Source: Phyllobacterium sp. YR531 (GTDB lineage Bacteria; Pseudomonadota; Alphaproteobacteria; Rhizobiales; Rhizobiaceae). From it: a stretch of 64,000 nucleotides of DNA. A program made the position numbers and the translations under genes. Numbering within the stretch: position 1 is the first letter of the stretch; every line of letters begins with the position of its first letter. The notes under the pieces are model-generated. The model made no database searches. It had not been told where the DNA came from and saw only the letters and a list, made by a program, of their open reading frames with translations. The DNA lies in contig NZ_AKIZ01000022.1 in NCBI RefSeq assembly GCF_000282595.1, forward strand, positions 62,001-126,000, read 5' to 3'. Below are positions 1,234-18,718 of the stretch, one piece after another.

Positions 1234-3255
1234 ATGAAGATTGCGGTTTTTGGAGAAGCAACTGTAAGTCTGGGCGGGCAACTCGTTCCCCGTGTTCCTG
1301 CGAATTTTCTTCGAATCATCGTTTATCTTCTGCTTGAGAATGCCAATCATTCAGTTTCTCGCGGCAAGCTTTCGCAAATCCTCTGGTCCGATACAGATCA
1401 ATCGCATGCCTCTATGAACTTGCGGCAGAGCTTGGCTCGCATCCGCAAGTTTCAAGACCAATATGGATTAAGCCTTATTCAGGGCGATGCAACTTATGTC
1501 TATCTTAACCTCTCTCAAGTAAAAGCGGAACTTCTTCGTATCGATCTGCTTGAATATATCGAGCTGGAACGAAAGGGCGATATCGAGTCGCTCATGCGAA
1601 TGACCGAGCTTTATACTGGTGATCTCCTCGCACAGAACGAGCCTCAAGCTTCGGATTTTGACGAATGGTTGGATGTCAAGCGCGTAAAGCTACGCGATGA
1701 TCTGACGACGATGCTGCTTCGCATGATTGATCGGCCAGTGGGTGTGAGTATTGATGAAAAGCGGCAATGCGCACGTAAATTGGTAGAAATAGACCCCTAT
1801 CAGGAAGTTGGCTATCGCGCTCTAATGCAAACGGCATCGCAACTTGGCTTGATTGCCAAAGTTGAACGGACATTCCGGGAATGTGCAAAAAAGCTCCGCG
1901 ATGACCTTGATGTTGATCCGGAAGAAGAGACTATAGAGCTTTATCAGCAGTTACTGCCGAAGCTTTCCCCGGCCACGACACGCGGTTTGATAATAACACA
2001 ACCTGCGCTCCCCATTACAACCCGTATGGAGATCCAGACACCTTATGCGATGAGGGCGGCATCTCAGATCGAACAAAACAGACAGGTTGGTCTGCCGAGG
2101 ATCATGGTGCTTTATCTTCCACATAATGCCTCTGATCCAATGGAACAGCTCGCCGCGTCGCTGGTCGATGACATAACGATCGGTCTTTGCCGATTGCGCA
2201 CTCTTTCGGTTGTCGCTCCCTATACATCACGACGCATAGTCACAGATGCTCCGGTCGATGGATTTGATGGCCTAAAGGAGCAATTCGGTGTTCATTATGC
2301 CGTAGACAGTAAAATAGTCAGGCGTGACGGTTTTTGTTTCCTCTCCGTGAAGCTCATAGACACTGAAACTCAAGAGATTGTCTGGGCTGAAAAACAAAAA
2401 TTCGACTATGTGCTGCCTGAACAGCAATATCGTCAGCTCTCTATCCGGATCATTCTTTCTGTTGTGTCTGTTATCGAGAAGTCTGAACTCGATCGCTACA
2501 ATAAGCTCGAGCAAGATCCAAATGCCTATTACTGGTATCTTATGGGCAAACGCGAAATCGACAAATTTGATTTGCCAAAGCTGCGCCAAGCACGTCAGTC
2601 GTTCAAGAATGCCTTGACTGCTTCGCCAGATTTTGTGCCGGCGCTGAGCGGTATTGCACGGACGATGCAAAAAGAATGGTTGATGCTTTCGCGCAGTGAG
2701 AAAGGCATTCTTTTAGAGGGAGAGCAAATCGCCAAGCGAGCTGCGCCTGCGGATCCCGACGATGAGCGGCCCTTACGCGAATTGGGCACCATCAGCATGT
2801 ATCTCGGTAAGTTTGAAGACAGTCTTCAGTATTTTGATCAAGGCGAATCGATCAATCCGCAACATGCGGATTTGCTGGCCGATTATTCAGACGCACTTAC
2901 GCATTATGGGTGGCTGGATCAGGCACTTGAGAAGATACAGCAAGCCATAGCCCACAATCCGCTGGCACCGGATTATTATTATTGGGTAGGAGGCGGAGCA
3001 CTCCATAATCTTGAACGTCATTCTGAGGCAGTTGACCTCCTCGAGCAAATGCAAAACCCTCGTGCTGCTGCTAGATTGCTGGCTGCTTGTTATGCGATGA
3101 AGGGTGAAAAAGAGAAGGCTTGTGAGTATAAGAAACAAGCAATGGAGGATAATCCAACTTTTCGCATAGATGATTGGATCAAAGGTCTTGGTGTACGCCT
3201 GCCGGAACAGCGGCAAAGATATGAAAATTCGCTGCGGGAAGCGGGTTTCCAGTAA
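1234..3255 (+). CDS. BTAD / TolB-like / TPR transcriptional regulator
   Basis: This encodes 673 residues. Residues ~1-95 form an OmpR-type winged-helix DNA-binding domain (N-terminus KIAVFGEATVSLGG) and ~97-245 a bacterial transcriptional activator domain (BTAD) as in SARP/DnrI regulators. Residues ~285-395 resemble the TolB-like region found in CadC and adenylate-cyclase-type regulators (GLCRLRTLSVVAPYTS and LIDTETQEIVWAEK). The remainder to ~650 is TPR-like helices. There is no receiver domain. Proteins of this architecture regulate nearby genes, and this one is followed after 30 bases by two precursor-like genes and YcaO/TfuA in the same direction. It is therefore the likely pathway-specific activator, which is inference. 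Confidence 0.85.
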   Translation: MKIAVFGEATVSLGGQLVPRVPANFLRIIVYLLLENANHSVSRGKLSQILWSDTDQSHASMNLRQSLARIRKFQDQYGLSLIQGDATYVYLNLSQVKAELLRIDLLEYIELERKGDIESLMRMTELYTGDLLAQNEPQASDFDEWLDVKRVKLRDDLTTMLLRMIDRPVGVSIDEKRQCARKLVEIDPYQEVGYRALMQTASQLGLIAKVERTFRECAKKLRDDLDVDPEEETIELYQQLLPKLSPATTRGLIITQPALPITTRMEIQTPYAMRAASQIEQNRQVGLPRIMVLYLPHNASDPMEQLAASLVDDITIGLCRLRTLSVVAPYTSRRIVTDAPVDGFDGLKEQFGVHYAVDSKIVRRDGFCFLSVKLIDTETQEIVWAEKQKFDYVLPEQQYRQLSIRIILSVVSVIEKSELDRYNKLEQDPNAYYWYLMGKREIDKFDLPKLRQARQSFKNALTASPDFVPALSGIARTMQKEWLMLSRSEKGILLEGEQIAKRAAPADPDDERPLRELGTISMYLGKFEDSLQYFDQGESINPQHADLLADYSDALTHYGWLDQALEKIQQAIAHNPLAPDYYYWVGGGALHNLERHSEAVDLLEQMQNPRAAARLLAACYAMKGEKEKACEYKKQAMEDNPTFRIDDWIKGLGVRLPEQRQRYENSLREAGFQ

Positions 3256-3285: not shown

Positions 3286-3549
3286 ATGGCTAAGTACTTC
3301 ATCATCGGGGAAACGGATAGCAAAGAGCTGTGGTTGGTTGACTTGGATAACCGTAGCGTTGAGCCCTTAACGGAGGAAATCCTCGCTAAATCACAAGCAG
3401 CAGATGCGGGATTTGTAGAAATCCTCGAAAGAGCCCGCGCCAATGGGATTACGACATTAAAGGGCGTCAGTATCGCGATCGCGACAAACAGTCGATCTGA
3501 GGCTGTGTCCCAATCATTTATTGTTGATCCTACGTCCCATCAAAAGTAA
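3286..3549 (+). CDS. Putative RiPP precursor peptide, single degenerate core
   Basis: This encodes 87 residues. The N-terminal ~50 residues share a pattern with the next small protein: MAK(Y/F), then II, then LWLV, then D..(R/N)SVE.L, then an acidic helix. That looks like a common leader. The C-terminal end contains SRSEAVSQSFIVDP, which can be aligned with one copy of the 13-residue repeat of its neighbour (RSDxSDRAFSFxG) but is degenerate and occurs once. It has no Cys. Position before YcaO and TfuA supports a precursor role. It may instead be an immunity, decoy or accessory leader-like protein. Function is inferred from context and similarity to the next gene. Confidence 0.65.
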   Translation: MAKYFIIGETDSKELWLVDLDNRSVEPLTEEILAKSQAADAGFVEILERARANGITTLKGVSIAIATNSRSEAVSQSFIVDPTSHQK

Positions 3550-3644: not shown

Positions 3645-4013
3645 ATGGCAAAGTTTTACATTATAGATCAACCAGAAGTCGATAAGTTGTGGCTTGTAAA
3701 CGCTGACACAAACAGCGTTGAATGTCTTGATCGAGACCTTCTGGAATCACTCGGAACAGCAGGATGTGAGTTTCTGTCATCCATCAGCGATTTGATGGGC
3801 GACAACAAATTCTCTGCCGAAACTCGTAGTGATCCGTCTGAACGGGCCTTTTCCTTTGACGGTCGCAGTGATGCATCCGACAGGGCATTCTCGTGCGATG
3901 GAAGAAGCAACCCGTCAGATAGAGCATTTTCTTTTAGCGGGAGGAGTGACGTATCAGATCGGGCATTCTCATTCGGCTCAGAAAAGAATGTTCCTATCCA
4001 AACATCAAACTAA
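3645..4013 (+). CDS. Putative multi-core RiPP precursor with four 13-residue repeats
   Basis: This encodes 122 residues. Residues 1-60 form a leader homologous to the preceding small protein (LWLVNADTNSVECLD). Residues 61-112 are four tandem copies of R-S-(D/N)-x-S-(D/E)-R-A-F-S-(F/C)-x-(G/S), starting at residues 61, 74, 87 and 100. The tail is EKNVPIQTSN. Only copy 2 carries Cys (RAFSCDG); all copies have three Ser, so azoline formation on Ser or backbone thioamidation are the options for the adjacent YcaO/TfuA pair. AGAAAGG lies upstream of the ATG. Repeated cores in one precursor are known in RiPPs such as thiovarsolin. No product of this sequence type is known to me. Confidence 0.75.
   Translation: MAKFYIIDQPEVDKLWLVNADTNSVECLDRDLLESLGTAGCEFLSSISDLMGDNKFSAETRSDPSERAFSFDGRSDASDRAFSCDGRSNPSDRAFSFSGRSDVSDRAFSFGSEKNVPIQTSN
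3825..3980 (+). repeat. Four tandem 39-bp coding repeats
   Basis: Units lie at 3825-3863, 3864-3902, 3903-3941 and 3942-3980, in frame with the precursor gene. Codons differ between units (for example CGT, CGC, AGA and AGG for the first or internal Arg) while the residues are kept. This suggests selection on the peptide rather than a very recent duplication. Confidence 0.85.
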
Positions 4014-4064
4014 ACAGCGGCGCTCAGTCATCAGTAGCTCGTGAGTGCTGGGCGTGGAGTACGA

Positions 4065-5321
4065 ATGAAATCACTGACTGGGATTTCGGTGTTTGAAAGG
4101 CTGGTGGCGGATGAAGAAAAACTTCGTCTAGCTGCAAGTAATACTGATCAGTCGTCTGTAAGACTGCACAATGCGGACGTAACCGTTGAACGATTACGTC
4201 CGCATTTTTCTCGTTTTGGCATTGTTCGGCTAGCTGATGTAACGGGTCTTGATTGCATAGGAATTCCGGTTTGGATGGCCGTGCGTCCAAATAGCAGGAC
4301 GTTGGCAGTCAGCCAGGGTAAGGGCGTTGCCGCAGCCCATGCGCGCGCTTCTGCTGTGATGGAGGCAGCCGAGATTGCTATCGCCGAAGATATTTCCGTT
4401 CCTTCAGTCAATGCCACCAGGGCTCAACTTTGCAACCAAGGATATGCGGTTTTAGATGGGCGTATGCTTTTAATGCGTGGTGCTGAAGAACCGGAGGATG
4501 ATGAGGCCATAGACTGGTTGGAGGGCTTCGATCTTCTCAAGCGAATACCAGTATATGTTCCTCGCGAAGTCGTAACACTTGATTTCACTACCCAACGACA
4601 GGACTGGCACTATAGCCAATCGACCGATGGCCTGGCATCCGGTAACTGCTTGTTGGAGGCCGTAATTCATGGCTTATGCGAGCGAGTGGAGCGCGATGCA
4701 ACTGAGATATGGCGTTTTCAACGCGATGCAAGTGTTCAGGCGCGTTGTGTCGATCCGAGCGTGTTCTCTGATGACAATATAGATTGGCTAGCTGAACGTA
4801 TCACCAGTGCAGGCTTTGTACTAAGGCTGTTCAATGCGAGTTCCGATATTGCGTTACCGGTGTTTATGGCGACCATCAGTCCCGCGACGCGGCATGGTAC
4901 TTACCTGCATTTTGATCTTGCAGCGGGGTATGGCTGCCATCTTTCGCCTCGTGTTGCAGCAATGCGCGCAATCACTGAGGCGGCACAAACTCGTATCACT
5001 AATATTTCGGGCGCGCGCGATGATTTCGATCCGTCTGAGTATTCGGAACGTCTTGCGCCTGATCTGGCAGTCTATATCAATGCTAAACCGGAAAGAGGCT
5101 TCATTTTTGAAGAGCCTCCAGCTTTCGCCCGCGCTAGTCTTGAGGCCTATCTCAAGCCTCTACGTCTGCGTGGCATAAGCAGCGTAATTGCGGTTCCGCT
5201 TGGCGGTGAAGAATACGGCTTCTCTGTTTGTCGTGTGCTGATCAATCAATTGGAAAGCCCGGCAGGGGTTCGCAAACACCGATTTGGTGGGAGGGCGCTC
5301 AATGCAATGCTGCATCAGTAA
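4065..5321 (+). CDS. YcaO-domain cyclodehydratase/thioamidation enzyme
   Basis: This encodes 418 residues from the ATG at 4065, which has GGAG five bases upstream; a GTG at 4041 in the same frame is less likely. YcaO proteins use ATP to activate peptide backbone amides. The ATP/Mg signature is present: SAVMEAAE (S96, E100, E103), an NCLLEAVIHGLCERVERDA stretch (E206, E209) and RAITEAAQTR (R301, E305, Q308). No E1-like or ocin-ThiF domain is fused. With TfuA directly after it, this is the YcaO-TfuA pair known from thioviridamide-type thioamidation and from trifolitoxin loci. The likely substrates are the two small proteins upstream (inference). Confidence 0.9.
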   Translation: MKSLTGISVFERLVADEEKLRLAASNTDQSSVRLHNADVTVERLRPHFSRFGIVRLADVTGLDCIGIPVWMAVRPNSRTLAVSQGKGVAAAHARASAVMEAAEIAIAEDISVPSVNATRAQLCNQGYAVLDGRMLLMRGAEEPEDDEAIDWLEGFDLLKRIPVYVPREVVTLDFTTQRQDWHYSQSTDGLASGNCLLEAVIHGLCERVERDATEIWRFQRDASVQARCVDPSVFSDDNIDWLAERITSAGFVLRLFNASSDIALPVFMATISPATRHGTYLHFDLAAGYGCHLSPRVAAMRAITEAAQTRITNISGARDDFDPSEYSERLAPDLAVYINAKPERGFIFEEPPAFARASLEAYLKPLRLRGISSVIAVPLGGEEYGFSVCRVLINQLESPAGVRKHRFGGRALNAMLHQ

Positions 5322-5330
5322 AACTCTGCT

Positions 5331-6068
5331 ATGAAGATTCTTTTTGCCGGCCCCAGCCTTTCTCGAACAGAATTTGTGCCGCTGCGCAGTGGAGAAGATG
5401 TCTTCCTGCCTGCGCACGAATTGACCTGTCGTGGCCCCGCCAAATGCGGTGATATTACCCGTGCTGTTGACGAAGGTTTTCGCGAGATTGGCCTTGTTGA
5501 CGGGCGCTTTGAGGATGTCGCCGCTGTATGGCATAAAGAAATACTGTACGCGTTATCTAAAGGTGTAACCATCTATGGTGCTGCCAGTATGGGTGCTCTG
5601 CGTGCTGCCGAATGTTATCCCTTCGGTATGATCGGCATAGGCAACGTTTTCGAACGCTACGCATTTGGCGGGCTGGAGGATGATGCGGCAGTAGCGCAGG
5701 TGCACGCACCAGCAGAATTTGGCTATATTGCTTTCAGCGAAGCAATGGTGGCCATTGACGCTACGCTGGAACGCGCCAGAACAGCTGGAGCCTTTACATC
5801 AGAAGAACAACTTTATGTTCGCGCTACGGCGAATTCTATCTTCTTTAAGGAACGAACTTGGCGACGAATATTTGATGCGTCAATTGAAATCGCGGACGCT
5901 GCCGAGCGTCTGAAGTTACATATGTATAATATAAAACGACACGATGCGACGTTACTGTTGGAGACCTTGATAGGGCAACGTCAGGCGGAAAAAGCGAACC
6001 AACACGGCGTTTATTTTTCCGACTGGACGCTTAACGAAACCAGCCAGTGGCTCAAACTTAAGATTTAG
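5331..6068 (+). CDS. TfuA-like protein, YcaO partner
   Basis: This encodes 245 residues, nine bases after the YcaO stop. The N-terminus KILFAGPSLSR and the central TIYGAASMGALRAAE followed by GMIGIGNVFERYAFG are hallmarks of the TfuA family, named after trifolitoxin TfuA. TfuA proteins are partners of YcaO; in thioamide RiPPs and in methanogens they are thought to help deliver sulfur for backbone thioamide formation. The protein is soluble with no signal peptide. It closes the five-gene co-directional unit. I see no dedicated protease, dehydrogenase or exporter next to it. Confidence 0.88.
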   Translation: MKILFAGPSLSRTEFVPLRSGEDVFLPAHELTCRGPAKCGDITRAVDEGFREIGLVDGRFEDVAAVWHKEILYALSKGVTIYGAASMGALRAAECYPFGMIGIGNVFERYAFGGLEDDAAVAQVHAPAEFGYIAFSEAMVAIDATLERARTAGAFTSEEQLYVRATANSIFFKERTWRRIFDASIEIADAAERLKLHMYNIKRHDATLLLETLIGQRQAEKANQHGVYFSDWTLNETSQWLKLKI

Positions 6069-6399: not shown

Positions 6400-6425
6400 C
6401 GATGTCATGGGCGAGGGGCGTTGTT

Positions 6426-7646
6426 GTGAAAGTAGCGATAGTTCATTATTGGCTTTTATCGATGCGAGGTGGCGAGAAGGTCCTCGAAGCACTGAGCGAA
6501 CTGTACCCGGACGCGGATATTTTTACACTTGTCTATGATCCGGATGCCATCAAGGGCCGTTTAAAGAGCCACAAAATTACTACGTCCTTTCTGCAAAAAA
6601 TCCCTGGTGCAAAAAAACACTATCAGATGCTTCTTCCTTTGATGCCGATGGCTTTGGAAAGCATGGATCTAACCGCCTATGATTTAATTATCTCAAGTGA
6701 ATCCGGTCCAGCAAAAGGGATCATTCCCAAGCCTGATGCATTGCACGTTTGTTACTGTCATTCACCAATGCGATATATTTGGGATCATTACTTTTTTTAT
6801 CGTGCGAGTGCCGGTTTTATGAAACGCTTATCGATGCCGGTGATAGCATCGTGGCTCCGGCAATGGGATGTATCCACCAGTGCTCGAGTTGACTGCTTCA
6901 TCGCAAATTCGCGTCATATCGCCAATCGCATTCAAAGGTATTATCGGCGAGACGCCGCTGTTATTCATCCGCCAGTGTCGGTCGACGAGTTTGCCATCTC
7001 GGATAACGTGGATGACTTCTACCTCTGTGCAGGGCAATTGGTAGCCTACAAGCGTGTTGACCTTGCTGTTGAAGCTTTCACTCGGATGAACAAAAAGCTT
7101 GTTGTGATAGGCACAGGCGAAGAGATGGCCTTACTGAAAAGCAAGGCAGGACCAACTGTTACATTTCTGGATCATCAGCCGTTCTCGTCGTTAAAAAGTC
7201 ATATGGCGCGGTGCAAGGCTCTGATTTTTCCAGGAGAAGAAGATTTCGGTATCGTGCCTGTTGAGGTGATGGCTAGCGGTAGGCCGGTGCTCGCCTATGG
7301 AAGGGGTGGAGCGGTTGATACGGTAATTGACGGTATCTCAGGTAGGCTCTTTCCCGAACAAACAGTCGAAGCTTTAATTGATTGTGTCGAGCAGTTCGAA
7401 CAGACGGAGGGCAATTTTAATCCTTCCCAAATTCGTGCACATTCACTGCGCTTCAGCAAGGAAGTGTTCAAAGAAAAAATCAGCCAGCTTATTCACAAGG
7501 AATTTGACCGCCGGAATACCCAACTCAAGTTGGATACTATCGCACAAGTGCCGGGATTGTCTGAGGTACGAGGTAGAACAGGCGCGCTCGTGCTTGCATT
7601 GAAGCCGCCAACCCAAGCCAGTTCCAATTCCTTGCGCCCAAGTTGA
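6426..7646 (+). CDS. GT4-family glycosyltransferase
   Basis: This encodes ~406 residues. The conserved N-terminus KVAIVHYWLLSMRGGEKVLEAL is the GT-B donor-loop start, so I place the start at GTG 6426 with GAGGGG seven bases upstream rather than at ATG 6402. CHSPMRYIWDHYF, the mid-protein FYLCAGQLVAYKRVDLAVEAF and the C-terminal FPGEEDFGIVPVEVMASGRPVLAYGRGG (nucleotide-sugar site with two Glu) place it in family GT4. It is a cytoplasmic enzyme that adds a sugar to a lipid-linked glycan, with unknown donor. It is the first gene of a two-gene unit. Confidence 0.88.
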   Translation: MKVAIVHYWLLSMRGGEKVLEALSELYPDADIFTLVYDPDAIKGRLKSHKITTSFLQKIPGAKKHYQMLLPLMPMALESMDLTAYDLIISSESGPAKGIIPKPDALHVCYCHSPMRYIWDHYFFYRASAGFMKRLSMPVIASWLRQWDVSTSARVDCFIANSRHIANRIQRYYRRDAAVIHPPVSVDEFAISDNVDDFYLCAGQLVAYKRVDLAVEAFTRMNKKLVVIGTGEEMALLKSKAGPTVTFLDHQPFSSLKSHMARCKALIFPGEEDFGIVPVEVMASGRPVLAYGRGGAVDTVIDGISGRLFPEQTVEALIDCVEQFEQTEGNFNPSQIRAHSLRFSKEVFKEKISQLIHKEFDRRNTQLKLDTIAQVPGLSEVRGRTGALVLALKPPTQASSNSLRPS

Positions 7647-7659
7647 CGGCGTAGCAGCG

Positions 7660-8946
7660 ATGTTGGAGCGTGTTGTAATAATCAACGACGAAGCAGTGGC
7701 CAGTGGTGGTGCTGCTGCCTTGGCACTACTTTCAGGAAAGCTTCTTCAAGAAGCAGGCATTCCGGTCACATTTCTCGCCGGCGATTCAGGAATTGGTTTT
7801 CCTTTAAAGGGCGAGAATGTCGAGATAGCCGGACTAGGAAGCCAGCCACTACTAAAATTGCCCGTCCACAAACGCATCATAGATGGCGCTTATAACAGGG
7901 CAGCTTACGAAGCAATAAAACACTATATTACTGAAAAAGACACACCGGGAACGGTATACCATGTCCATGCTTGGGCACAGATTCTGTCGCCTTCAATATT
8001 CTCGGCACTCAGGCCAGTCCAGGATCGTCTGGTAATATCGGCTCATGATTTCACTTTGGTATGTCCCAATGGAAGCTATGCCAATTTCAATACAAATACT
8101 GTTTGTTCGTTGACGCCATTAAGCAGACAATGTCTGGCATCAAACTGTGACAAACGCCGTTATGCAGACAAATTATGGCGCTTTGCTCGTTCCTGGTTAC
8201 GTACGCGGCTTCTGGATATGGCCAATTCAAACTGCACGATCGCCTCCATTCACCCGATGATGAACAACTGGCTTGAGCGCGGCGGAATACCTTCAAGACA
8301 GATACGAACCGTTCTCAACCCGGTTAAGCCATTTGTGCGGAAGCGTATAACTGCTGAAAGTAACAGTGATATATTCTTTATTGGACGGCTGGAATTCGAA
8401 AAAGGTGCAGACATTGCGGCTGAAGCCGCACGGATAATCGGCCGGAGGCTAAGGATTATTGGTGATGGGGCATTTCGGGAAGAACTTACCCGACGCTATC
8501 CTGAGGTCATCTGCGAGGGTTGGAAAACCCATGATGAGATAAGCAAACTTTTGCAAGAAGCAAGGTTTGTTGTCATGCCAAGCAGATTACCGGAACCATT
8601 TGGTCTTGTCGCCCACGAGAGTCTTCAAAGCGGTGTTCCGATTGTTGCTTTCAAATCTGCCTTCATAGCTAATGAGGCCCAGGAATTGGGATGTGGAATT
8701 GTTGCTGAAGAGCCGACTGCAGAGAGCCTTGCAAACGCATTTGCTGCACTTGATAACAACAGTGACGTGAAAAGCATGAGCAAGGCCGCCTTCGCGCTTT
8801 CTCCCGGATTGGCAAATACACCAAATAGTTGGTGCAGTGAATTGATCGCTCTTTACACTGATTGTTTGATGAACAGAAAATTGCCTAACGCTGATCCAAA
8901 GCATTTCCTAGTTCCGGAGTCGCGGCCTATCGAGCGGGCGATCTGA
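7660..8946 (+). CDS. GT4-family glycosyltransferase
   Basis: This encodes 428 residues and follows the previous glycosyltransferase by 13 bases. It has a GT-B fold layout: N-terminal IINDEAVASGGAAALALLSGKLL, the acceptor-domain stretch VYHVHAWAQILSPSIF, then DIFFIGRLEFEKGADIAAEAA and the family signature MPSRLPEPFGLVAHESLQSGVPIVA with the EX7E-like pair. A cluster of Cys (VCSLTPLSRQCLASNC) around residues 145-165 is typical of one GT4 subgroup. Donor and acceptor cannot be read from the sequence; the probable role is elongation of the exopolysaccharide repeat unit. Confidence 0.88.
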   Translation: MLERVVIINDEAVASGGAAALALLSGKLLQEAGIPVTFLAGDSGIGFPLKGENVEIAGLGSQPLLKLPVHKRIIDGAYNRAAYEAIKHYITEKDTPGTVYHVHAWAQILSPSIFSALRPVQDRLVISAHDFTLVCPNGSYANFNTNTVCSLTPLSRQCLASNCDKRRYADKLWRFARSWLRTRLLDMANSNCTIASIHPMMNNWLERGGIPSRQIRTVLNPVKPFVRKRITAESNSDIFFIGRLEFEKGADIAAEAARIIGRRLRIIGDGAFREELTRRYPEVICEGWKTHDEISKLLQEARFVVMPSRLPEPFGLVAHESLQSGVPIVAFKSAFIANEAQELGCGIVAEEPTAESLANAFAALDNNSDVKSMSKAAFALSPGLANTPNSWCSELIALYTDCLMNRKLPNADPKHFLVPESRPIERAI

Positions 8947-9081
8947 TTTTTCAAATGCCAAAAACCGCAATTTCAGAAGCTCGCAATAGTCATTTATTCA
9001 TACTTTTTGATTAAATTTTTAATTGATCTAAAGCAGCGCTAAATCTGCCGGACTATCTTTGGTCCAAATTCAAGGTTAGGG

Positions 9082-9264
9082 TTGACCTCAGATTTGAAAA
9101 CAATCGTTAAGAGATCGATGAAAAATACTTCTCAAGATCTAGAAACCTCGAGTGAACGCCCGACAAAGTCATTTGTTGACCTAGTGGAAGAGAAGTATCT
9201 TATCCGTTGGGCAGCTCTCTTTCTTTGTGTAGTATTCTGGCTTATCATCTGGCGCATGATGTAA
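9082..9264 (+). CDS. Small C-terminally anchored membrane protein, unknown
   Basis: This encodes up to 60 residues from TTG 9082 or 48 from ATG 9118, in the same frame. A charged N-terminal half precedes a single hydrophobic helix AALFLCVVFWLIIW near the C-terminus. No family is recognised. The helix pattern and location between polysaccharide genes make it plausible, but the gene is short and could be spurious. Confidence 0.4.
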   Translation: MTSDLKTIVKRSMKNTSQDLETSSERPTKSFVDLVEEKYLIRWAALFLCVVFWLIIWRMM

Positions 9265-9278
9265 TACTGCTTGTTTCG

Positions 9279-9548
9279 TCACGACCGCTCCAACGAGCCC
9301 TCAGGCTCGTCGTCCCCCGCAGAAAGCCATTCACGCAAAATCGCAACGGACATCGGGCCAAGATTTGGAATAAGATTTAATTCCAACCTAGATGCCCAGC
9401 TTCTCTCGGGCTCCCAATCGGGGGGCATGTCCCACGGTGCTCCACCGTATTCGACCCACAACGCATTCGCGATCCTGGTGTGGACCGTCTTTGAGGGACA
9501 GAAGGATTGAAGGAGATGGGGCATGAGTAACCCAGACAAGAGTTGCAT
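9279..9548 (-). CDS. Small protein with helix-hairpin-helix-like motif
   Basis: This encodes 89 residues, 41 bases downstream of the exoY-like gene on the same strand. IPNLGPMSVAILREWL resembles the helix-hairpin-helix of the RNA polymerase alpha C-terminal domain and related short DNA-binding proteins. The Trp-rich part before it (WVEYGGAPWDMPPDW) is unfamiliar. An internal ATG at 9524 is an alternative start. Composition looks protein-like, but there is no close family I can name. Confidence 0.45.
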   Translation of the reverse strand: MQLLSGLLMPHLLQSFCPSKTVHTRIANALWVEYGGAPWDMPPDWEPERSWASRLELNLIPNLGPMSVAILREWLSAGDDEPEGSLERS

Positions 9549-9589
9549 CCGTTCACACCAATCGCAATATTGATTAAGCTATCTATTAT

Positions 9590-10267
9590 TCAGCAACTAC
9601 CTTTCGCTAACAGCACGACTGACGCTGTACGTGCCATGATTTTAAGATCCACCCACACGGAGCGAGATTTAAAGTAATCCGTATCCAGTTTCACTCTAGT
9701 GTCGTAGCCAGCATCACTTCGGCCGCTGACCTGCCAAAGACCGGTTATTCCTGGCTTCATTGCTGCGTAGTATCGATAGGAATCGCCATATCTATAGATT
9801 TCGTCCATTACTATAGGGCGAGGTCCTACAATGCTCATTTCCCCACGCAGGACATTGATGAATTGGGGGAGTTCGTCCAAACTTGAGATGCGCAAGAATC
9901 GGCCAATTCGATGGATTCTAGGATCGGTTTTCAGTTTTTGAGTTTCAGCCCACTCACGAAGTGAATCGGGACATTGCGCCAAAAGTGTAACCAGGCGCAC
10001 ATCGGCGTCCTTCGCCATTGAGCGAAATTTTAAACAAGTAAACTCTTTACCATTAAGGCCGATTCTACGTTGTTTATATATTACTGGAAAGCCGTCGGTT
10101 AAAACTAATGTGCATATAATGCAAATGAGTAACGGAAAGAGAAAAATTAGCGCGACGGTGGCGAACGTAACATCAAGAGTCCTCTTGATTACATCATAGG
10201 ACATCCGGTGTTTTGCCGGCATTTTTTCGGTCCGCTGTTCTATCAGCGGTTCTGTAATGTAGGACAT
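9590..10267 (-). CDS. exoY: ExoY-like undecaprenyl-phosphate sugar-1-phosphate transferase
   Basis: This encodes 225 residues from the ATG at 10267, which has GGGG eight bases upstream and gives a length like rhizobial ExoY. The frame stays open to a TTG at 10369. One membrane helix (TFATVALIFLFPLLICIICTLVL) is followed by the bacterial sugar transferase core: YKQRRIGLNGKEFTCLKFRSM, then DELPQFINVLRGEMSIVGPRP, then PGITGLWQVSGRSD. It initiates repeat-unit synthesis by moving a sugar phosphate (galactose or glucose type) to undecaprenyl phosphate at the inner membrane. It is transcribed alone or with the small gene downstream. Confidence 0.9.
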   Translation of the reverse strand: MSYITEPLIEQRTEKMPAKHRMSYDVIKRTLDVTFATVALIFLFPLLICIICTLVLTDGFPVIYKQRRIGLNGKEFTCLKFRSMAKDADVRLVTLLAQCPDSLREWAETQKLKTDPRIHRIGRFLRISSLDELPQFINVLRGEMSIVGPRPIVMDEIYRYGDSYRYYAAMKPGITGLWQVSGRSDAGYDTRVKLDTDYFKSRSVWVDLKIMARTASVVLLAKGSC

Positions 10268-10655
10268 AATGCTGACCCCAACCCATCCCATAGTTTCGGC
10301 TTGTCCAAACGCGTCGCGCCGGAAATCCTTTTGAATCGCAGCTAGCCTGCTACGTGCCAAAAAATGCAAACCCCAAGCAAAGCAGTGTTTTTATTCAGGA
10401 TATTCAGAATTTATACGCAATAAAGACAGCGGTTACTGTCTGCTTTCTGTTTTTTATTTACTCTCTGATTCCCTGTATACAAATAAACTATAGTATAAAT
10501 GTTTTGCGTCAATAATTAATAGTACTTAAAGGGAGATATTGTACCCTTAACAATAATTATTAAAATTAGATCTAATACTCACTTACTCATTGATATAGCG
10601 TAAGGAGGTCATGCCATTTTGGGGAAATGGAGATGGCTCCGAGCCCAAACCAAGA
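10268..10655. promoter_or_regulatory. AT-rich promoter region of the exoY-like gene
   Basis: These 388 bases hold no supported gene apart from possible in-frame upstream codons of exoY to 10369. The part from 10440 to 10600 is very AT-rich. A perfect dyad AGACAG-CGGTTA-CTGTCT lies at 10424-10441, about 160 bases before the exoY start, and is a candidate operator. Confidence 0.4.
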
Positions 10656-12221
10656 TTATTTACTCTTGCAAAGATCTATCACAAACCTGTTTCCGAGAGT
10701 ATCTATATGATGACATCCCACAATACCGACCATGAAGTCGGGCCTGATTAGCTTTATAGTTTCTTCCAAATATTCTTCTTCATCAAGTTTGGTGATTTCC
10801 TGGATGTTTAGGCCATAACCGTAAATCCCGTGGGAATTACATTGAGATGGACGCAAAATTCGATCACCTAATATATGAACCCGGCCGCCATTCCGCGCGA
10901 CATCACTTCCGATGATGACCGGGTTGCGTTTGTGAGGGATCACCGTTTTCAGAGCTGGTCCATCAACAGAAAAAGCATAAAGTTCACTGGAGTGATCCAT
11001 AAAAGTATGATGATCCGAGAGGGACGTGAGCAGCCACCATTTTCCTTTAACCTTGAACATTGTCGTGTCTGCAGGGCTTTTGCCTTCCAGTGCTGTTGAG
11101 TGGAGTTCCCATCTCAGCGGAAATTGCGTGCAGCGCCATATCTCCACCCGGTCTGTCTGGTGGGTTTCAGGAATCATGTAAATGTCCGTACCGTCGTTAA
11201 ACACGAACGGATAGGAAAGATGATAACTGGTGCGCAGGCAGGTTCCGAGAAATTCAACGTCGTTTCCGGACAGGCAGGCTACGGATATCCAAGCGTTCTT
11301 GCTATTATCCGGGAAACACTCGAAGAAAATGTAATCCTTTTCCTGCCATCGGAAGAGAAACGGATCAGCTGCCCACATACCGGCAGCAAGCTTTAATGGT
11401 ACCGCTTTGTCCGGAGCAAAACTCTCGATACTACCATCTCCCAAATATACTCCCCAACTTCTTGCATTGAGCCCCAGCTTTGCTCTTGTTCGTATTGCCA
11501 GTTTTTCGACGATGTTACGGCTGAGTTGCCCTAGGTAAGCTACAGAATCCAAAAGCCGAGGAGATGTTCGTATATTAGCGGGTGGGATAACGGTTGTTGT
11601 GGGATGCGTTCGCGTTTCCGCTAATCTGCGTAGTTCGCGCAAGAGCAGCAGTACGGACTTTTCCTTTATGAAAGCGCCATTAAGTGCGGCGCTATATTTG
11701 GTATTGTAACTGGCCGTGGCAATGATGATTGGCTCGTTCTGTGTGGATTTGCGAGCGATCAACTGAACAACCGTCAGTGCTTCACGCGCTTGTACCTCCC
11801 AAAACCCGGTCCAGTCGTAGCCCTTTGCTTTTTTATCAACAAAATCGAGCGCCCATTCTCCAAACTCGACTTGATCAAGACATTCCTTCGGCAATGCTTT
11901 GGCATTCAAACGCACAACGACGTCAACCTCCAGCCCAATCATACCATCTCGGCCAATACGTTTGGGAGTAGGAATCCTATATCGCTGGTTTCCGAAAGGT
12001 TGAGTTGGATATTGCAGCTGCTTAACGAATACGTGTTGCTCTGCTTTGTCGATCAATCTTACAAGGAATGAGGTTTTTTGGGTTTCAGCCGCCCCGGTGG
12101 AGACAACCGCCCGTAAGTCGAACTCTCGGTGATCAAGGATAGTTCTGAGAAGTTTGATTTCCCAGTTCTCGAGTTTGTCCAAGGTATCGACAACGATCCC
12201 TATGCGAAGCCTTGTTGACAT
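10656..12221 (-). CDS. Formyltransferase-like / GINT1-like beta-propeller protein
   Basis: This encodes 521 residues. The N-terminal ~210 residues (RIGIVVDTLDKLENWEIKLL; VDVVVRLNAKALPKECLD) look like the Rossmann-type half of formyltransferase-like proteins. From ~265 the chain has blade-like repeats such as AADPFLFRWQEKDYIFFE, SYPFVFNDGTDIYMIPET and GKWWLLTSLSD. These match the N-terminal domain shared with plant glucosamine inositolphosphorylceramide transferase (GINT1) and GH43-like propellers. Bacterial members occur in surface-polysaccharide loci; their reaction is not established to my knowledge. It is divergent from the flippase gene. Confidence 0.7.
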   Translation of the reverse strand: MSTRLRIGIVVDTLDKLENWEIKLLRTILDHREFDLRAVVSTGAAETQKTSFLVRLIDKAEQHVFVKQLQYPTQPFGNQRYRIPTPKRIGRDGMIGLEVDVVVRLNAKALPKECLDQVEFGEWALDFVDKKAKGYDWTGFWEVQAREALTVVQLIARKSTQNEPIIIATASYNTKYSAALNGAFIKEKSVLLLLRELRRLAETRTHPTTTVIPPANIRTSPRLLDSVAYLGQLSRNIVEKLAIRTRAKLGLNARSWGVYLGDGSIESFAPDKAVPLKLAAGMWAADPFLFRWQEKDYIFFECFPDNSKNAWISVACLSGNDVEFLGTCLRTSYHLSYPFVFNDGTDIYMIPETHQTDRVEIWRCTQFPLRWELHSTALEGKSPADTTMFKVKGKWWLLTSLSDHHTFMDHSSELYAFSVDGPALKTVIPHKRNPVIIGSDVARNGGRVHILGDRILRPSQCNSHGIYGYGLNIQEITKLDEEEYLEETIKLIRPDFMVGIVGCHHIDTLGNRFVIDLCKSK

Positions 12222-12552
12222 TATGCCCCCTTATGCCCGCCCAACACTCCCGGATTGCGTCACAGAATGCGCAAACTTCTCATGATCGAACGTGGCCTCG
12301 CATCGAATGTTCCACGTTCAAATGTATCCGTCCAGAATGCCTAATCTAATTGATTAGCAGTGTAATTCCTGAATCAAATCTGGTCATCTGATATTGGTGA
12401 GAGATCGTTTCGAAGCAATCCGGTCGAAATTTTCTGCACGGGCAAGTGCTCTTTCGGAAATGACCTGATGCACCGCATTTGCCGGGGATACTACTCTGAA
12501 ACAGGTCAGTCAGATAGCTGCCGAGAGGCTCACTGCTAAGAAAGCCGCCATT
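12222..12552. promoter_or_regulatory. Divergent promoter region between GINT1-like and flippase genes
   Basis: No gene is seen apart from an open frame directly upstream of the flippase ATG (codons from 12469 without an ATG, GTG or TTG). A perfect dyad CTAATC-TAATT-GATTAG lies at 12341-12357, midway between the divergent genes, so one regulator could control both. Confidence 0.45.
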
Positions 12553-13998
12553 ATGGGCTTTATGGCGATGGCATCACGCATCTGTGCTCAACTGGCGCAA
12601 GTGGTTGTATTTGTTTTGGCTGCAAGAATGCTTACAGCGGCAGAATTTGGTACCTATACCCTCATACTCGCAATAGCGATTCTATTGACTCGCATTGCTG
12701 AGGCAGGCTCTCGCGAGTTTATCATGAGTTGCCGTGAGGATGCCTCACTGTTTAACCAGATCGGCACAATAGCATTAGCAAGTGGTGCAGTAGCGATGGT
12801 CGTCGGTCTGATTGTCTCAGGCGCGATAAACCATTTCTTTGAGATGAAACTGGTGGCCGATATTCTTGCTATCTTTTCTGTCTGGGTGGTATTCGCAACG
12901 TTCAGCGCAGTTTATGCGGGCGTCCTGGTTCGCCAAAGTCGCTCGGAAATGCATTCCATTCTACTGATGGCAGGTGAGGGAATTGGCCTAGTAATCACCT
13001 TGGCCGGACTGTTTGCCGGTTGGGGCATTTTTGCGCTGGCGGTTGGCAAGCTCGTTATGCAGATCACGTATCTTTTTTCAGCCATGAGGGTAACACGGTG
13101 GATACCCCAGCCACGGCTGCAATTGGTTATTGTAAAAGAATTAGTGGCGTTCTCTCGCTACATACTGGCCACACGCATGGTTGCGTATTTTCATACGTAT
13201 GCAGTGACCTTCGTTATAGGGATATTCTTTGGTACAGCGAGTGTCGGTTATTACAGGGTTGCGGAGCGGTTAGGCTCGTCCTTCGCTGATATGATGGATG
13301 AGCCAAGCCGCTTGATAGCTTGGGTAAGTCTACGGCGCGCAGCTCGGGATAATCAGTCCCCCGTGGACCTCAAACGAAGCGTTGGGCATGAAGCAACTTT
13401 GCTCCTGCCATTTCTACTGGCTCTTGCGGCCCCCATTTTTATCGGGCTAGCACTCGTATCAGAGCAATTAGTCGTCCTGTTGCTTGGAGAGCAGTGGCAT
13501 CCGGCAGCTCCGCTTACCGCGCTACTAGCGCTGATGTACATGCTGTACAGCCCGGCTGTGCTCACAGAGCCTATCCTGTCTTTGACTGGCCAGGTACAGC
13601 GTTTGCCGCTAATTTCGCTTTGCAACGTCGCAGTAGCTCTCGCCTTCCTCCTCATCGCGGTGCCCTTTGATATTATGGGTGTTGCTATAGGACAGGTAAC
13701 CGCAGCTACAATCACAGTCTGCATAACCGTATGGCTGCAGAGTCATTATGGCGGGGTTGACTGGAAGCAAGTTTCGGCAAACAGCGTGATCATTCTACCG
13801 GCTCTGATCGCAATGATTGCGGGTATTGTTTGGATAGCTCGGTTTTCCCTACCACTAACATGGGGCCTCGCTCTTCAAATTTTTGTTGGTGCAGTAGTTT
13901 ATTCCAGCGTTATCGCAACACTGTATGTTTTCTTTTTCAAGACGAGCAACTTATTTGCCTGGAAAAGGGCGAGGGTGCCAAGCGAATCCAACCTCTAA
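12553..13998 (+). CDS. Oligosaccharide flippase (Wzx / MATE-like)
   Basis: This encodes 481 residues with about 12-14 hydrophobic helices over the whole length. Polysaccharide-flippase features include the N-terminal VFVLAARMLTAAEFGTYTLILAIAILLTRIAEAG. Such proteins move lipid-linked repeat units across the inner membrane. The usual ~20 polar residues before helix 1 could be supplied by the open frame upstream (RLTAKKAAI), which has no standard start codon, so the N-terminus is uncertain. It heads a three-gene unit with a methyltransferase and a GNAT-like gene. Confidence 0.88.
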   Translation: MGFMAMASRICAQLAQVVVFVLAARMLTAAEFGTYTLILAIAILLTRIAEAGSREFIMSCREDASLFNQIGTIALASGAVAMVVGLIVSGAINHFFEMKLVADILAIFSVWVVFATFSAVYAGVLVRQSRSEMHSILLMAGEGIGLVITLAGLFAGWGIFALAVGKLVMQITYLFSAMRVTRWIPQPRLQLVIVKELVAFSRYILATRMVAYFHTYAVTFVIGIFFGTASVGYYRVAERLGSSFADMMDEPSRLIAWVSLRRAARDNQSPVDLKRSVGHEATLLLPFLLALAAPIFIGLALVSEQLVVLLLGEQWHPAAPLTALLALMYMLYSPAVLTEPILSLTGQVQRLPLISLCNVAVALAFLLIAVPFDIMGVAIGQVTAATITVCITVWLQSHYGGVDWKQVSANSVIILPALIAMIAGIVWIARFSLPLTWGLALQIFVGAVVYSSVIATLYVFFFKTSNLFAWKRARVPSESNL

Positions 13999-17812: not shown

Positions 17813-18718
17813 ATGACTAATCGCAACAATCATCACCAGAATCCTGGTGTAGACCCATCAGCTTCAGCCAGTGCCGACGCTTCAGCATTTGCTGCTGCTT
17901 TGGCTTTGCAGCTGCAGGGACAGGGACAGGGCCAGGATCAGGGACAAGGCCAGGATCAGGGGCAAGGTCAGGGCCAAGGACAAGGGCAGGGCCAAGGACA
18001 AGGTCAGGAGCAATCATCAGTTTCAGAAAATCTCAATCTGAACGGTAATGGAAACTTCAACGGCAATCTTAATGAAAGCTATAGCGAGAACTCCAATTCC
18101 AATAACAACTCCAATAACAACTCATCACACACCGAGGTGAAGGTAGACGTTGGTGTTGGTTTGGACGGCTATCTACCCACTGATGACGATTTTGCTGATC
18201 TGGATCTACACGGCAACACCTTCGACAATATCTTCATCACTGAATCGGGAAGTATCAATTTTGATCCGGGCAATGATGTCAATTTTGATAGTGTCCTTAA
18301 CGGTGCTTTTAGTGGCGGAGGCGACAATACCGGGTTTGCGCTCAATCAGGTTGTTGATCTCGTAGACAACGATTCGCTCTCAAGCGTAAGCCAGACCAAT
18401 AGTGGCAGCGTTACGCTGAGCGCTACAGGTGGTGGTGCTACGGCAGGTGACGGCATCGGTACTGACGATGGTGGTTGGGGTGGTCTTGATCACAGCTTCT
18501 TCGGCGGTCACGGTGGTTCGTCTGGTGGTTCCGGCGATATCGGCGCAGGTGATGACGTATCTGGTTCGAGTGCAGCAAGTGCCGCTGCCAACCTAACATC
18601 AACAGCCTTCACTCAGGAAATCGTACTTGGTGCAAACCTGCAGCAAAACGCTTTCGATGCCACTGTTATCAACGGCACGTACACTCATACTTCAACCGGC
18701 GATACAGACGCAGTTTAA
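17813..18718 (+). CDS. Low-complexity Gly-Gln/Asn-rich putative type I secreted protein
   Basis: This encodes 301 residues. After a short Ala/Ser-rich N-terminus, residues ~33-67 are almost purely alternating Gln-Gly with a few Asp, and ~70-106 are rich in Asn, Gly and Ser. The rest is Gly/Ser/Asp-rich with imperfect beta-type stretches ending in TSTAFTQEIVLGANLQQNAFDATVINGTY. There is no N-terminal signal peptide and no RTX nonapeptide. Location at the head of a cassette with an ABC exporter and HlyD adaptor makes type I export likely. The composition is like matrix or amyloid-forming surface proteins (inference). No named family recognised. Confidence 0.75.
   Translation: MTNRNNHHQNPGVDPSASASADASAFAAALALQLQGQGQGQDQGQGQDQGQGQGQGQGQGQGQGQEQSSVSENLNLNGNGNFNGNLNESYSENSNSNNNSNNNSSHTEVKVDVGVGLDGYLPTDDDFADLDLHGNTFDNIFITESGSINFDPGNDVNFDSVLNGAFSGGGDNTGFALNQVVDLVDNDSLSSVSQTNSGSVTLSATGGGATAGDGIGTDDGGWGGLDHSFFGGHGGSSGGSGDIGAGDDVSGSSAASAAANLTSTAFTQEIVLGANLQQNAFDATVINGTYTHTSTGDTDAV
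17909..18013 (+). repeat. Hexanucleotide-period Gln-Gly coding repeat
   Basis: A six-base period (CAG/CAA followed by GGN, sometimes GAT) encodes about 16 Gln-Gly/Asp pairs. Codons vary along the tract, so protein-level selection seems more important than recent slippage, although length change between strains is possible. Confidence 0.8.

Follow-up and report, generated by a model that had tools for sequence, protein, structure and literature searches.

A putative multi-core peptide precursor encoded in a YcaO-TfuA operon of Phyllobacterium

What is known about repeat-bearing precursors encoded beside YcaO and TfuA? In the sections of the thiovarsolin report covered here, varA, varY and varT are described as enough to give thioamidated tripeptides from a repeated core, and the precursor family is said to carry from none to five imperfect repeats in a cluster that holds no specific protease (PMC6511847). 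A survey of TfuA-YcaO clusters, also covered in part, assigns more than 500 of them to Rhizobium and lists Rhizobium and Agrobacterium with the dominant groups of proteobacteria; the word "repeat" is absent from its main text, and the precursor family described below may stand unnamed in its supplements (Malit et al. 2021, PMC8120280). The name tfuA comes from trifolitoxin, a peptide antibiotic of Rhizobium, according to the passages covered of PMC4603692, and a Ser-Lys catalytic pair in TfuA is described, in the part covered of PMC13185837, as freeing sulfide from the ThiS thiocarboxylate. In the literature searched, which took in titles, the starts of abstracts and passages and left most subscription papers and all supplements outside, we found no description of the precursor family reported here.

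We analyzed a 64,000-nucleotide stretch of DNA (the window) from Phyllobacterium sp. YR531, a soil bacterium. Five genes lie there on the forward strand in the order BTAD-TPR regulator, A1, A2, YcaO and TfuA. The regulator (1234..3255, +, 673 residues) is a BTAD/SARP-type protein with C-terminal TPR helices (Pfam BTAD 1.8e-11, and TPR), and AfsR and EmbR are among the PDB sequences that its family profile matches. Its AlphaFold model has a mean pLDDT of 86 and a pTM of 0.46, and the structure search returned generic TPR proteins, which is uninformative on a ligand. YcaO (4065..5321, +; Pfam YcaO 3.6e-59) begins with ATG, a GTG start at 4041 being possible too, and its best PDB sequence match is MJ1094 (1.7e-30), which we take to be a TfuA-linked archaeal YcaO type. 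TfuA (5331..6068, +; Pfam TfuA 3.4e-40) is nearest by sequence to PDB entry 6xp8 (3.3e-23) and contains S86 in the motif SMGALR and K202 in KRHDA. In a genus set of 20 genomes, the window's included, YcaO was called at E≤1e-40 in 18, and the five genes stand in this order in 18 of 18 operons. The SMGALR motif is present in all 18 of these TfuA proteins and the Lys of KR[x]DA was matched by pattern in 16; we infer that this Ser and this Lys are the published catalytic pair. Two ThiS-family proteins, both over the cut-off, are encoded in the window genome. The best NCBIfam models for YcaO and TfuA are those for McrA-glycine thioamidation (TIGR03266, NF033432), with scores below the model cut-offs. 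In the two genomes without a YcaO match at that threshold (96% and 94% complete), A2 gave no hit at E≤1, and the regulator match reaches 24% at best.

How far does the operon extend? Eleven-kilobase stretches around the 18 operons were compared using open reading frames of at least 100 residues, plus A1 and A2, with antisense frames set aside, and the only same-strand genes common to all 18 are A1, A2, the regulator, YcaO and TfuA. Thus, neither a dedicated protease nor an exporter is visible among the frames of that size shared by the 18 stretches, and the same frames include no cyclodehydratase partner (E1/ocin-ThiF-like) and no flavin dehydrogenase. Scans for promoters and terminators gave results at chance level. 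A role in anti-phage defence was considered and set aside, as none of the five operon proteins has a PADLOC match at E≤1e-5. Downstream of the operon, at window positions 6402-13998, lie genes for glycosyltransferases and a sugar transferase together with one of polysaccharide-export type; among eight window neighbours, five have matches to glycan families, one to a methyltransferase, one weakly to an acyltransferase and one to nothing. Since the two nearest downstream glycosyltransferases are common to only 6 of the 18 operons, these genes are probably an independent glycan cluster. Farther along, a 301-residue frame (17813-18718, +) is rich in Gly-Gln/Asp-Gln and Asn-Ser low-complexity repeats and contains an 18-bp tandem array at 17921-18009.

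A2 (3645..4013, +) is a 122-residue frame with an ATG start. Its four core copies, RSDPSERAFSFDG (3825..3863), RSDASDRAFSCDG (3864..3902), RSNPSDRAFSFSG (3903..3941) and RSDVSDRAFSFGS (3942..3980), all on the forward strand, are 13 residues each, so that the four perfect-length tandem 13-mers described by a sequence-only reading of this DNA are indeed present, at window positions 3825-3980. That reading assigned them to the C-terminal half of the protein, which is correct for the presence of the repeats and too generous for their extent: the array covers 52 of the 122 residues, slightly under half, with a 10-residue tail behind it. Its further description holds as well, with Ser at positions 2, 5 and 10 of every copy, a terminal Gly in copies 1-3 of the four, and Cys in place of Phe in copy 2. 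At lag 13 the array matches itself at 28 of 39 residues, and none of 100,000 segment shuffles scored as high (maximum 15). The DNA copies, in contrast, are only 21-26 of 39 nucleotides identical in pairwise comparison, a divergence that explains why Tandem Repeats Finder, working at the DNA level, did not report the array. The six pairs taken together give a pS of 1.04 (saturated) versus a pN of 0.18, a rough estimate given about nine synonymous sites per pair; the saturated synonymous sites and retained residues argue that the copies are old and maintained for the peptide, in agreement with the earlier suggestion of diverged codons under peptide-level selection. No cleavage site is obvious between the abutting repeats of the window protein, no core residue obviously marks a thioamide site, and neither Pfam nor NCBIfam assigns the protein to a family at E≤1.

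Which features of the array persist among relatives? Counted by pattern, A2 has four copies in the window genome, 3, 8, 5, 6, 6, 4, 7, 8, 4, 7, 7, 6 and 8 copies in thirteen others, and a single copy in four; two of the four-copy proteins carry an additional degenerate copy. Outside these 18 genomes, the locus of P. myrsinacearum DSM 5892 also has one core copy, which brings the single-core loci to 5 of 19 in Phyllobacterium. The comparison of repeat number proposed in the sequence-only reading therefore yields a range of 1-8 copies. The repeat unit is 13 residues long in seven genomes, 19 in six (with one step of 26) and 24 in one, and the motif running through these differently spaced arrays is R-S-[DN]-P-S-[DE]-R-x-x-S. 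When the count is anchored on positions 5-9 and positions 1-4, 10 and 11 are left free, the 18 genomes yield 89 copies, and a pattern that demands R at position 1 finds 87. Among the 89, position 1 is R in 87, position 2 is S in 67, position 3 is D or N in 77, position 4 is P in 65 and position 10 is S in 81; the anchor itself partly dictates positions 5 (S in 82) and 7 (R in 86). Position 11, the Phe/Cys position of the window, is A in 39 copies, F in 34, S in 12, C in 2, V in 1 and T in 1, so that the Cys to which the earlier reading drew attention is incidental and no feature of the family. That reading had set conservation of the repeats in length and in residues as its check on homologues, and the outcome is divided: the length is not conserved, and the residues of the motif are. 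Because the spacers change and R-S-x-P-S-x-R-x-x-S stays, the motif stretch would be what matters, and the likelier product is a peptide of about 10 residues. Thus, the results support the idea that a presumptive precursor in a YcaO/TfuA operon carries repeated cores, while a 13-mer product is not supported in that wording, given that homologues have units of 13, 19 or 24 residues or a single core.

Neighboring A2 copies across the genomes are identical at between 20 of 39 and 39 of 39 bases, near-identical copies being found in P. sophorae and others; the upper end of this range means that copy number is still changing, and the range as a whole that amplification is old as well as recent. A YcaO+TfuA tree of the 18 genomes, in which support for some deep branches is weak, requires at least five changes between unit-length states. 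The 13-residue units fall in two separate clades, and a 13-mer ancestor that was later replaced is as possible as repeated gain. One operon is in decay: in P. zundukense A18/3m (L224, plasmid NZ_CP104972.1) the regulator is split over two frames, YcaO survives as short pieces, and neither a TfuA match nor a separate A1 was found in the operon. A2 is still open there, with four copies, the last of which deviates from the motif at two Ser positions. This single case points the way one would expect if the motif is kept in place by the enzyme.

The repeats of A2 follow a leader domain (residues 1-53; 3645..3803, +) predicted by AlphaFold to consist of three strands and two helices. In a model built from 77 rows, block means are 87-93 for residues 1-50 and 42-55 beyond, and the leader is thus predicted to be folded and the tail that holds the repeats to be disordered. 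A1 (3286..3549, +), a small protein of 87 residues, aligns with the A2 family from the leader into the first core (hhalign of the two families, 98.4%, E 4.4e-15), and by this measure A1 and A2 are homologous. The alignment with the first A2 core places one core-like copy in A1, RSEAVSQSF, which starts at R70 (3493-3519, +). An hhalign alignment of the A2 leader with PqqD gave a probability of 0.1, which is no match. Foldseek gave weak rows to the RRE-containing entries 5why (E 0.9) and 5v1u (E 1.6); a second structural search with the leader returned no RRE rows, and no clear match emerged among solved structures. We also sought a known family for the leader-type precursors. Compared with Pfam and NCBIfam, 77 members gave weak and scattered matches with no consistent model, the best of which (4e-4), seen in 4 of the 77, was to a viral domain, and a known family was accordingly rejected.

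Is this operon type confined to Phyllobacterium? We assembled 166 YcaO loci, a convenience sample made up of the window, 17 genus operons, L080, 25 family loci (L015-L039), 42 named loci (L085-L126) and 80 loci fetched through YcaO or TfuA matches. A TfuA frame lies on the YcaO strand within the stretch at 162 of the 166, and within 500 bases of the end of the YcaO frame at 142. The leader profile matches at 83 of the 166 loci, and a BTAD regulator was detected in 83 of these 83. In the 53 loci where no regulator was detected, some of which may have one concealed by a short flank, the leader family was not seen. The 83 are an undercount: at L018, L019 and L029, all three with a regulator, leader-type frames are visible by eye and were missed by the profile because the YcaO frame had been called too long. 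These three are among 30 loci with a regulator and no leader-profile match, a group which shows that other precursors exist too. The SMG motif is missing from 18 of 142 surveyed TfuA frames, some of which, e.g., L202 and L184, stand beside leader-type precursors.

The leader commonly ends in K-G-[VI]-[DN]-x-A-V-A, and the core comes next. R-type cores include RSEAVSQSF of A1, RADGSGAWFY in Devosia and RSDAASHHYFP in arrays of Afifellaceae, the leader-type precursors of the latter two having been found by reading of frames together with the profile; SG-type cores, such as SGGFMDG and FSGLFD, occur at family loci. After removal of L117, L189 and L193, second copies of sampled genomes, tandem cores are significant (1000 shuffles per locus) at 27 of 80 leader loci, 14 of 19 in Phyllobacterium and 13 of 61 elsewhere. 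Their units include RSDAASHIFYGVDRAVAADT (20 residues), RSEPAAHILYGADT (14), ESLSAASSHNWGEPVRGGDMAVAS (24) and GLFERSEGVTEAAG (14), as well as the short 7-residue units GGFFEAS, FSGKLEA and GGYMDAG. Many of these are unrelated in sequence, some again being of the form RS[DE]xxxH, and core multiplication has thus occurred several times in this operon type.

Other arrangements were seen in the same survey. At L185 and L199, imperfect AGVQSQ-type repeats (6 residues, about ten copies) follow a different, longer leader upstream of YcaO, and at L192 a different longer leader is followed by longer Gln-rich repeats; a BTAD regulator is present at all three, a tandem type outside the leader family. 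Upstream of YcaO at L101 and L111, yet other leaders precede tandem units that contain TMRSEPTE and TMRAQTTA, and the RSEP in the former resembles the Phyllobacterium core. Two YcaO genes whose starts are about 3.4 kb apart are found at L226 (Rhizobium rhizogenes pC5.7c), each preceded by a small A1-like frame (E 2.8e-6 and 1.6e-4).

A profile made from A2 only found the window genome alone among 385 in a class-level search. The broader leader profile matched 23 of 297 genomes of the order, a figure that is partly circular in that some of these genomes supplied profile rows, and 7 of 369 in a phylum sample, of which six belong to the same family as the window and one is a marginal match outside the order (E 1.4e-4, inside an 813-residue frame). 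The SG-type precursor occurs in 32 plasmid records of Rhizobium, Ensifer, Sinorhizobium and relatives. At the Ensifer plasmid matches listed no feature is annotated (the gene table is incomplete, one record having three features), and in R. rhizogenes the precursor, which adjoins YcaO, is annotated "hypothetical protein".

We propose, at a probability of roughly two in three, that A2 is the multi-core precursor of a thioamidated peptide made by YcaO and TfuA, i.e., a RiPP. YcaO would recognize the small folded leader (residues 1-53) and, with sulfide supplied by TfuA, would turn a backbone amide in each core of the disordered tail into a thioamide, the tandem R-S-[DN]-P-S-[DE]-R-x-x-S cores lying between freely changing spacers. 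Cellular peptidases would then trim leader and spacers, so that one precursor would give several short modified peptides. A1 would be a paralogue with one core-like copy, and the BTAD-TPR protein would regulate the operon. Support comes from the five-gene operon in 18 of 20 genomes, with A2 and a close regulator, like YcaO, not found in the other two; from a motif kept over 89 copies despite spacings of 13, 19 and 24 and a copy number still in flux; from a leader family seen only at regulator loci (83/83 versus 0/53) with tandem cores at 27 of 80; and from SMGALR in 18 of 18 TfuA proteins, the two ThiS-family proteins and a leader predicted to be folded ahead of repeats that are not. The varA/varY/varT system, as described in the passages covered, provides a precedent (PMC6511847). 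Against the proposal stand the scores of YcaO and TfuA below the NCBIfam cut-offs, the single core at 5 of 19 loci, the lack of a visible dedicated protease or exporter and of an obvious thioamide residue, and the 18 of 142 TfuA frames without SMG.

The lack of a visible dedicated protease in the common operon and the abutting repeats of the window, with no obvious cleavage site, would also fit an uncleaved array, in which YcaO-TfuA modifies every repeat of A2, which then functions as a single multivalent modified protein. We consider this unlikely: a protein of fixed geometry would hardly tolerate a spacing that varies by clade (13, 19, 24 or single) around a constant motif, and the whole operon is kept in single-copy relatives. 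Azoline-forming YcaO proteins act on Ser, Thr or Cys, and the Ser conserved at core positions 5 and 10, and mostly at 2, raises the question of whether YcaO forms oxazolines there, or makes another amide modification, instead of a thioamide. TfuA, however, adjoins YcaO in 18 of 18 operons, the partner proteins of an azoline pathway (cyclodehydratase partner and dehydrogenase) are not among the frames of at least 100 residues common to the 18, and the closest solved YcaO by sequence, archaeal MJ1094, is not azoline-forming; we regard this chemistry as quite improbable here. Slippage of DNA could in principle produce functionless repeats in a disordered tail, and the near-identical copies in P. 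sophorae and others do point to recent duplication. As a full account this is very improbable indeed, since residues stay in the window while synonymous sites are saturated, the motif is kept in 89 copies, and elsewhere this operon type shows unrelated cores multiplied in the equivalent place.

What might the peptides of a multi-core precursor do? Peptide signaling through TPR receptors is known as the RRNPP type. The tandem cores could be putative peptide signals and the BTAD-TPR protein their putative receptor, giving a Gram-negative, backbone-thioamidated counterpart of TPR-receptor signaling in which copy number tunes dosage and lineage-specific peptides are used across the Hyphomicrobiales. 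The leader found only with the regulator (83/83), the TPR helices, the joint absence in two genomes and the lack of a visible dedicated exporter in the common operon fit this picture, which we offer as speculation with the odds well against it.

More broadly, relatives with 1-8 motif copies point to a family of modified peptides, made in many copies, that has not been described before. Rhizobia are reported to be rich in TfuA clusters, and apart from trifolitoxin no product is named in the passages covered. The locus and its relatives constitute a defined precursor family with a recognizable leader and a marked core. The natural series, from one to eight copies and with unrelated cores within one operon type, opens both the discovery of products by mass and the logic of core multiplication to direct test.

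Finally, how does the locus compare with known systems? Both enzymes find their best NCBIfam models in the McrA-glycine thioamidation of methanogens (TIGR03266, NF033432), but in this operon they presumably act on a small multi-core protein, and the scores fall below cut-offs. Like the microviridin precursors described in the passages covered of PMC5934393, A2 has several cores per precursor, although the enzymes differ from the peptide cyclase of that system. The regulator resembles AfsR/SARP regulators in the N-terminal region of its family profile, where AfsR and EmbR match, and differs from them in its middle domain and C-terminal TPR helices. As with trifolitoxin, tfuA would take part in ribosomal peptide production in a rhizobium, a likeness drawn from the description in PMC4603692, as far as covered. 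The thiovarsolins of Streptomyces varsoviensis (VarA, VarY, VarT) share with this locus a YcaO, a TfuA and imperfect tandem cores, a repeat number that varies among relatives and a cluster without a specific protease, as far as the sections covered describe them (PMC6511847). Their APR/GPR core differs: neither tripeptide occurs in the 122 residues of A2, where the core is RSDPSERxxS, and for this reason we do not claim membership of the thiovarsolin family for A2 (PMC6511847, same sections). The Phyllobacterium operon further differs in its BTAD-TPR regulator, its paralogous single-core gene and its phylum. On the best reading of this comparison, and judging by the description of VarA, A2 would work like a thiovarsolin precursor, set apart by its core and its regulator.
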